The notes under the pieces: generated by a model
Seen by the model: the letters and a program-made list of their open reading frames with translations, nothing else
Databases searched by the model: none
What the model was told of the DNA's origin: nothing
Made by a program: the position numbers and the translations under genes
Assembly (NCBI GenBank): GCA_029262995.1
Contig: JAJCYH010000009.1
Coordinates: 1-64,000 of the forward strand
Length of the DNA: 64,000 nt
Direction of reading: 5' to 3'
From: Saprospiraceae bacterium
GTDB taxonomy: Bacteria; Bacteroidota; Bacteroidia; Chitinophagales; Saprospiraceae
Part shown: positions 52,604 to 53,413 of the stretch, in pieces
Position numbering within the stretch: the first letter of the stretch is position 1
Layout of the letters: every line of letters starts with the position of its first letter

Positions 52604-53413
52604 ATGGCACATAAAAAAGGTGTAGGTAGTACGGATAATGGACGTGATAGTAAGAGTAAACGGTTAGGCGTAAAATTATTCGGTGGCCAAGAAGCAAGAG
52701 CTGGAAATATACTTGTTAGACAAAGAGGAACTAGGTTTCATCCTGGATTAAATGTTTATATGGGAAGAGATTTTACCCTTCATGCTCAAGTAGATGGTTT
52801 CGTTAAATTTAGAAAAAAGAAAGAAGGTAAGACATATGTAAATATTGTCCCATCCACTGATCAAATCGTTGCTGATAAAGCACCAGCTCCAAAAGCTGCT
52901 CCAAAAGCTGCCGCAAAACCAGAAGTTAAAGCTACTCCTAAGACAACTCCTAAAGCTGCCGCAAAACCAGAAGCTAAAGCTACCCCTAAGACTACCCCTA
53001 AGACTACCCCTAAGACAGATCCTAAGGCTGCCGAAAAACCAACTGCTAAAGCTACCCCTAAGACAACTCCTAAGGCTGCCGCAAAACCAACTGCCAAGGC
53101 TACACCTAAAGCGGCTACTAAACCTGCTGCAACTTCAAACAAAGGTGATGATCTAAGAAAAATAGAAGGCATTGGACCAAAAATCGCTGAGATTTTAAGC
53201 AATGCAGGTATTTCTACATTCGCAAACTTAGCTAAAACCAAAGTTTCTAAAGTTCAAGAGATCTTGACTGAAGCTGGTAGCAGATATGCAGGTAAAAATC
53301 CGTCAACTTGGCCAATGCAAGCAGATTTAGCAGCTCAAGGTAAGTGGGAAGACTTAAAGACACTACAAGATAAATTAGATGGTGGTATCCTTAAAGAGGA
53401 CGATCCTTCCTAA
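52604..53413 (+). CDS. rpmA: 50S ribosomal protein bL27 with KATPK-rich linker and helix-hairpin-helix extension
   Basis: 269 residues, about three times the usual 85-90. Residues 1-84 are a regular bL27 ([39 protein letters not shown]), so the ribosomal part is intact. Residues 92-178 are a low-complexity linker of Lys, Ala, Thr and Pro with repeated [18 protein letters not shown] units and no Cys. Residues 181-262 form a helix-hairpin-helix-like domain ([46 protein letters not shown]). The whole frame is open with no break, so this is a real fusion. The HhH domain could bind RNA or DNA near the ribosome, and the linker could be a tether. The core function in the peptidyl-transferase centre is expected to be kept. 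Confidence 0.95.
52877..53137 (+). repeat. Tandem repeat array encoding the KATPK-rich linker of bL27
   Basis: The DNA here repeats short units such as CCTAAGACTACC and GCTGCCGCAAAACCA, encoding alternating K, T, P and A. Copies differ only at third positions and by whole-unit gains, so unit number may vary between strains by slippage. The frame stays open through the block. Confidence 0.85.

Follow-up and report, generated by a model that had tools for sequence, protein, structure and literature searches.

Single ribosomal proteins with C-terminal extensions are already known, and the closest described ones are the extended bL21 (NF008915 and NF008916, the latter also PRK12278) and the extended uS2 (NF008966) of NCBIfam. 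We analyzed a 64,000-nucleotide stretch of a Saprospiraceae genome (hereafter, the window), in which ribosomal protein bL27 is followed by a linker and a helix-hairpin-helix (HhH) domain. This domain matches a C-terminal stretch of all three models (positions 153-191 of 216, 159-209 of 223 and 268-312 of 334, respectively). However, the host in these families is bL21 or uS2, and the bL27 of the window falls far below their cutoffs; against the NF008916 cutoff of 193 bits it scores 36.5 bits, and the bL21 of the window 85 bits. The bL27 tail also matches the NCBIfam models of NuoE and the phasin PhaH, and no bL27 model with such a tail is among the matches listed for the window's bL27 (the best 25 of 31).

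A related domain also occurs in non-ribosomal proteins of solved complexes. Profile A1, which comprises 13 rows of mixed bL27, bS1 and bS6 tails including the three of the genome studied, matches the C-terminal domain of protein-O in the Dinoroseobacter shibae RC-LH1 complex (8yy9_O, E 5e-8), as well as a complex I subunit (chain 9wqv_a, E 2e-5). In the report on protein-O (PMC12079452), this domain is placed on a long flexible loop, is not visible in the map and is common to NADH-quinone oxidoreductase subunit E and other proteins, and the authors call its function obscure. Unlike bL27, protein-O resides in a membrane, as part of a photosynthetic complex.

Three further likenesses are partial or weak. 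The bL21 of Flavobacterium johnsoniae in solved ribosomes (7jil_R, 147 residues) has an extension that can be aligned to the linker of tailed bL21, but the alignment stops at query residue 138, short of the HhH domain, and the chain is not among the A1 matches listed (the best 60 of 69). Archaeal eL32 (1jj2_X, 9l94_Q) is a ribosomal protein with an HhH-like stretch, which A1 matches weakly and non-significantly (E 0.04-0.05; the eL32 model NF009401 gives E 0.03-0.05 against the window's tail), but the match lies at the start of the protein (chain residues 7-53) and covers the HhH half only. The AR2 domain of NusA (6ib8_C, 1wcn) is an HhH-class helical domain found by Foldseek and by a weak profile match (E 0.14-0.17); it differs in being part of a transcription factor, and the scores are weak, with the profile match limited to the first 39 positions.

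Ribosomal proteins are commonly regarded as invariable components, but among related genomes at least nine of them, from both subunits, have acquired one and the same domain. The open-licence literature, judged in part by titles and the openings of abstracts, yielded no paper on HhH tails of ribosomal proteins (bL21, bL27) or of RC-LH1, and within that search the occurrence of the tail on nine ribosomal proteins appears not to have been described. Extensions that had been met separately on ribosomal proteins, complex I and the photosynthetic reaction centre unite under one unexplained domain.

The extended bL27 and its neighbor bL21

The rpmA gene lies directly 3' of rplU. The features of this locus are as follows:

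52268..52579, forward strand: rplU, bare bL21 of 103 amino acids (PF00829 127.2 bits, TIGR00061 102.7 bits)
52604..53413, forward strand, stop included: rpmA, extended bL27 of 269 amino acids (open reading frame and family matches)
52604..52855, forward strand: bL27 core, residues 1-84 (PF01016 at residues 2-81, TIGR00062 at residues 1-82)
52856..53146, forward strand: Lys/Ala/Thr/Pro linker, residues 85-181, predicted disordered (DNA repeats, low pLDDT)
53147..53404, forward strand: W-type HhH tail domain (PF14520 above cutoff, copies on bS1 and bS6, AlphaFold2)

The bL27 core passes both curated cutoffs over its full length (113.4 bits for TIGR00062, cutoff 90.35; 120.7 bits for PF01016, cutoff 20.5) and is the sole PF01016 match in the whole genome. 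The HHH_5 model (PF14520, gathering score 27) reaches 29.3 bits on residues 182-220 of the full-length protein and 33.2 bits on the tail alone. The 97-residue linker contains 22 K/R and 6 D/E residues and is encoded by repetitive DNA with periods of 12, 24, 48 and 72 bp. In the AlphaFold2 model of the whole protein, pLDDT is below 50 across most of residues 86-179, 87-93 for residues 181-250 and 82 for residues 251-260; the tail domain modeled alone has six helices, with a pLDDT of 91 and a pTM of 0.80. The core is modeled poorly in the whole protein (pLDDT 31-60), which is not unexpected because bL27 folds on rRNA. As far as Pfam shows, the tail domain of ~82 residues consists of one HhH half and a conserved W-rich helical half, with no tandem HhH.

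The first-pass annotation had proposed an uninterrupted 269-residue frame joining bL27, linker and HhH domain beside a tailless bL21, and both proposals were borne out, the former by the reading frame, the TIGR00062, PF01016 and HHH_5 matches and the AlphaFold2 model. The tail is not a chance feature of this gene, since relatives bear the same tail type on bL27; given this conservation, an assembly artefact is an unlikely source of it.

Distribution of the tail on bL27

We surveyed 60 genomes (own included), of which 57 have a bL27 match. The W-type HhH domain follows bL27 in 10 of the 12 matched genomes of the genus (own included), in 14 of 23 other genomes of the family and in a single one of 22 other genomes of the order, where three more carry a second subtype, b. 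A bL27 tail without HhH was found in 13 of the 57 genomes, although in two of them, G037 and G021, the gene is cut by a contig end (loci L006 and L165) and its status is not truly negative. No HhH domain was found on bL21 in these 57 genomes; two loci, L011 and L164, have bL21 proteins with short tails free of HhH (137 and 155 aa, respectively).

The two genus members that lack the domain differ from each other. In G013 (loci L027 and L036) bL27 is 115 aa long, with an HhH remnant downstream that is broken by stops and a frame change, evidently a tail loss caught in progress, whereas the 103-aa bL27 of G008 is followed by no remnant that could be seen by eye. The tail is not indispensable on bL27 in this genus, as these two of the 12 genomes do without it. 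At the other extreme, a family member (G018; loci L129 and L152) has a 501-aa bL27 with three tandem HhH domains. Judged from these sequences, the domain has evidently been both duplicated and lost on bL27 with no visible change of the core.

Hosts of the domain

In its own genome, the tail domain occurs at three places by single-sequence search (E ≤ 1) and also with profile A1, namely on bL27 itself, bS1 and bS6. By single-sequence search, the bS1 copy is 63% identical to the bL27 tail domain (E 5e-29) and the bS6 copy 46% identical (E 1e-19). The hosts were identified by Pfam S1 (six stretches) and Ribosomal_S6; HHH_5 scores 31.3 bits on the bS1 copy and only 20.8 bits on the bS6 copy. All three copies are on ribosomal proteins, and neither search found a membrane protein with an HhH tail in this genome. 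The bS16 of the same genome (locus L256, contig C23; a 237-aa frame) has a long acidic tail without HhH; bS16 of eight congeners ends in an HhH domain.

Nine ribosomal protein families from both subunits bear the same domain: bL27, bS1, bS6, bS16, bL17, bL21, uS2, uL15 and uL16. Among the loci fetched, at most three kinds of ribosomal protein are tailed per genome, and the genome studied, with bL27, bS1 and bS6, is one of those with three. The cultured relative Portibacter lacus has tails on bL27 and bS1 (loci L182 and L195). Non-ribosomal hosts in relatives include NrfD-family (ActC-like) proteins, COX1, carbohydrate-binding (CBM48-like) proteins and membrane coiled-coil proteins. Host names rest on a Pfam match of at least one representative each, except that the SnoaL-like host stays below its Pfam cutoff.

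In a sample of the phylum, the domain was found in 40 of 296 genomes at E ≤ 1e-5, and hosts were read from the loci of 39 of them, leaving out five weak places (≤32 bits, including the sole one of G092). The ribosomal hosts in this sample are bL21 (12 genomes), uS2 (4), bS1 (3), bL27 (3 and own), bL17 (2), uL16 (1) and bS6 (own); the others are NrfD-family (6), CBM48-like (2) and unnamed proteins (30), many of which begin with a hydrophobic segment as judged by eye. At least one ribosomal host is present in 22 of the 39 genomes. All fetched loci together hold 14 distinct bS16 and 8 distinct bS6 HhH domains.

The best 80 of at least 575 confirmed places in named genomes gave 89 reading frames with HhH, a count with some overlap, as some loci come from genomes that also bear G labels and one gene (L250) is split over two frames. 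Their hosts are bL21 (21), bL27 (15), bS1 (13), NrfD-family (4), CBM48-like (4), bS16 (2), uS2 (2), P-domain (2) and others (26), including two uL15 (PF00828) and one COX1 (PF00115). The sharing of the domain among many hosts is thus well supported by the sequence matches.

Conservation and charge of the domain

Twelve positions are invariant in all 13 rows of A1, namely E7, G8, G10, P11, K12, I13, P52, T54, W55, Q58, W67 and L70. Since the rows come from bL27, bS1 and bS6 tails, the domain appears to be constrained apart from its host. Among nine genus genomes (36 pairs; G007, also tailed, is not in this set), mean identity is 71% for the HhH domain and 81% for the bL27 core, and dN/dS is ~0.17 and 0.09, respectively, in the 9 of 36 pairs with usable dS, which is near saturation. 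The domain is better conserved than the linker. It therefore looks to be under constraint.

The 122 distinct HhH domains of ribosomal proteins have a mean net charge of −4.6, with 8 above 0; the window's own copy has a charge of 0, and six HhH stretches in five other proteins of the same genome range from −6 to +6. A seventh such stretch (L283) was set aside because its reading frame was wrong. On EVIKEV-repeat, CBM48, P-domain and SnoaL-like proteins, 35 domains average +0.8 and 17 are positive. However, acidity is not special to ribosomes, since the domains of NrfD, TM and COX1 proteins (14, mean −3.9) and of unnamed hosts (44, mean −2.3) are acidic too. We rejected charge as a proof against nucleic-acid binding: a Mann-Whitney test gave p 2e-12, but the groups were picked after the charges by host had been seen, relatedness was ignored and 59 of 216 domains were left out, namely those of NrfD/TM/COX1 and unnamed hosts, whose average is likewise acidic, and that of a single small basic protein. 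Charge leans only slightly towards protein contacts.

Possible roles of the tail

We tentatively favor a mobile C-terminal adaptor, in which a disordered linker bears an HhH (SAM-like) fold of ~80 residues that would dock weakly by protein contacts. Different hosts would have captured the module repeatedly, among them ribosomal proteins with a core that still matches its family completely. From the ribosome surface the domain may reach outward and dock either on one partner common to its hosts or on other domains of its kind, an interaction that would cluster ribosomes and certain other assemblies or hold them in place. As the linker is long, the choice of anchor protein would matter little. 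A compact domain, a long floppy linker, the C-terminal position and the many anchors all fit an adaptor on a line, and in several relatives membrane-anchored proteins bear the same domain. In addition, the Foldseek matches to the tail feature an HhH that docks on a protein, that of NusA AR2 bound to SuhB (ranks 14 and 29), although no match reached E ≤ 0.001 and the best were RadA and Pol theta. The mean charge of ribosomal copies would suit nucleic-acid binding poorly, which is a weak argument, and since no membrane protein with this domain was found in the genome studied, docking on a membrane-bound counterpart is disfavored there. Presence on at least nine ribosomal proteins suggests that the tail serves some shared need at the surface of the ribosome. 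The relatives offer a natural experiment, with the same tag on different anchors, sometimes lost and once tripled, and the shared domain gives a simple handle for finding a common partner.

Possible, if somewhat unlikely, is that the hairpin binds the backbone phosphates of DNA or RNA and thereby keeps the ribosome attached to nucleoid DNA, mRNA or rRNA. Such a tether could serve transcription-translation coupling, for example, or initiation in a class of bacteria in which ribosomes do not recognize Shine-Dalgarno sequences. The HHH_5 score of the bL27 tail above its cutoff and the G-x-G-P-K hairpin, invariant in 13 of 13 A1 rows, argue for such a tether, as do the structural matches to RadA, Pol theta and Dpo4 and weak profile matches that include RadA and polymerase beta. 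The location of two hosts also fits. Both bS1 and bS6 lie by the mRNA path. In F. johnsoniae, bS6 helps to form a pocket for the 16S 3' tail (PMC9976891). However, the ribosomal copies are mostly acidic, with the window's own being neutral, and no role involving nucleic acids is apparent for the respiratory and carbohydrate-binding hosts.

An unlikely reading is that the domain is a nearly neutral module, folded and harmless but not useful, which recombination between low-complexity linkers spreads onto permissive disordered C-termini. Such a history would agree with the repetitive linker DNA, the 13 of 57 relatives whose bL27 tail lacks HhH (two being cut by a contig end), the decayed remnant in G013, the triplication in G018 and the acidic bS16 tail of the genome studied beside the HhH-ending bS16 of eight congeners. 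It is at odds with the better conservation of the domain relative to the linker, with the same invariant residues being kept across hosts, and with the large share of hosts that ribosomal proteins form (22 of 39 phylum-sample genomes, as a plain count).

The adaptor might extend to the whole cell, with an interchangeable HhH tag on both ribosomal subunits, NrfD-family and COX1 proteins, carbohydrate-binding and membrane coiled-coil proteins, whose like or oppositely charged domains, or a common partner, would co-locate the assemblies. We regard this wider version as improbable; if true, ribosomes and other abundant assemblies would be brought together in space, and the tag-carrying protein would be interchangeable.

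Origin of the bL27 tail

The first-pass annotation placed an HhH tail on bL21 in Flavobacteriia, which the named loci confirm for Flavobacteriaceae, and proposed that the domain had moved between the adjacent genes. Among 96 distinct pairs of complete bL21 and bL27 (duplicates merged; bL27 typed by motif and length, bL21 by a length above 180 aa), HhH is on bL27 in 37, on bL21 in 30, on neither in 29 and on both in none. Profile typing of 104 genomes or loci before merging gave 44, 31, 29 and 0, respectively. The absence of doubly tailed pairs is only suggestive, because the loci were chosen for having bL27 or a tail and the states follow clades, Flavobacteriaceae having the tail on bL21 and Saprospiraceae having it on bL27; as an argument for a swap, the exclusion is confounded by clade. 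In the 104, subtype W is on bL27 in 41 and on bL21 in 29, and subtype b in 3 and 2, respectively. Two subtypes that each occur on both genes suggest more than one capture.

The most telling case is the opposite arrangement in one Saprospiraceae-labeled MAG contig (L202), where HhH is on bL21 and bL27 is bare at 83 aa. Each of its two cores has its closest homologue in Saprospiraceae or family f1 (76-77%), whereas the closest match to its bL21 tail is on bS16 (70%). For the 39 bL27 tails, the nearest non-bL27 tail is on bS1 (19), CBM48 (5), bS16 (5), bL21 (3), unnamed (3), SnoaL-like (2), TM (1) or EVIKEV (1) proteins, counts that are confounded by taxon, as most bS1 rows stem from the same family and most bL21 rows from Flavobacteriaceae.

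The HhH trees (196 rows and 82 columns, and a 105-row subset) did not resolve the hosts. Domains under 55 bits, shorter than 69 residues or identical were left out, as were all loci from L257 on; the subset also omits eight loci, most of them long branches, and retains a random selection of the non-bL27 hosts. AU tests rejected none of three groupings, namely the 39 bL27 rows as one clade (p 0.59), the 16 bL21 rows as one clade (p 0.89) and both together (p 0.19). The trees cannot decide, because for the bL27 clade and for the bL21 clade the constrained tree scored better than the quick unconstrained one, and the searches were therefore not exhaustive.

A transfer from bL21 to bL27 inside the rplU-rpmA operon, an origin compatible with any of the functional readings, is thus improbable: the mutual exclusion, L202 and the joint clade left standing by the AU test speak for it, but the exclusion follows clades, both subtypes occur on both genes, the bL27 tails are more often nearest to bS1 than to bL21, and the L202 bL21 tail is nearest to bS16, with the taxon confounding noted above. 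The movement proposed at first is not supported as stated, given these nearest hosts and AU tests that rejected none of the groupings. We favor capture of the tails from a dispersed pool, with transfer inside the operon possible but unproven. The related suggestion that the domain needs only the ribosome nearby and no fixed protein held in its second part, as bS1, bS6, bS16, bL17, uS2, uL15 and uL16 carry it too, whereas the first is too narrow in view of NrfD-family, COX1, CBM48-like and membrane coiled-coil hosts.

Additional hosts

Three ribosomal hosts are labeled outside Bacteroidota, namely bL27 in L221 (Myxococcota), uL15 in L228 (Gracilibacteria) and bL21 in L249 (Cocleimonas flava), and the COX1 host (L234) belongs to a Chloroflexi-labeled MAG. 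In L221 and L249 the core does not resemble the Bacteroidota cores compared. Loci L228, L234 and L249 make a spread of the tail beyond Bacteroidota possible, although misbinning is conceivable for L221, L228 and L234, which are MAGs.

In three loci of relatives (L136, L140 and L145), long EVIKEVEV-repeat proteins and P-domain proteins are clustered side by side, each with the same C-terminal HhH. Finally, a small basic protein (MAVTRLKRKGRRNKTTARVRV...) in a Cyclobacteriaceae locus (L188) has an HhH tail behind a core without a Pfam match; this protein is perhaps ribosome-associated.
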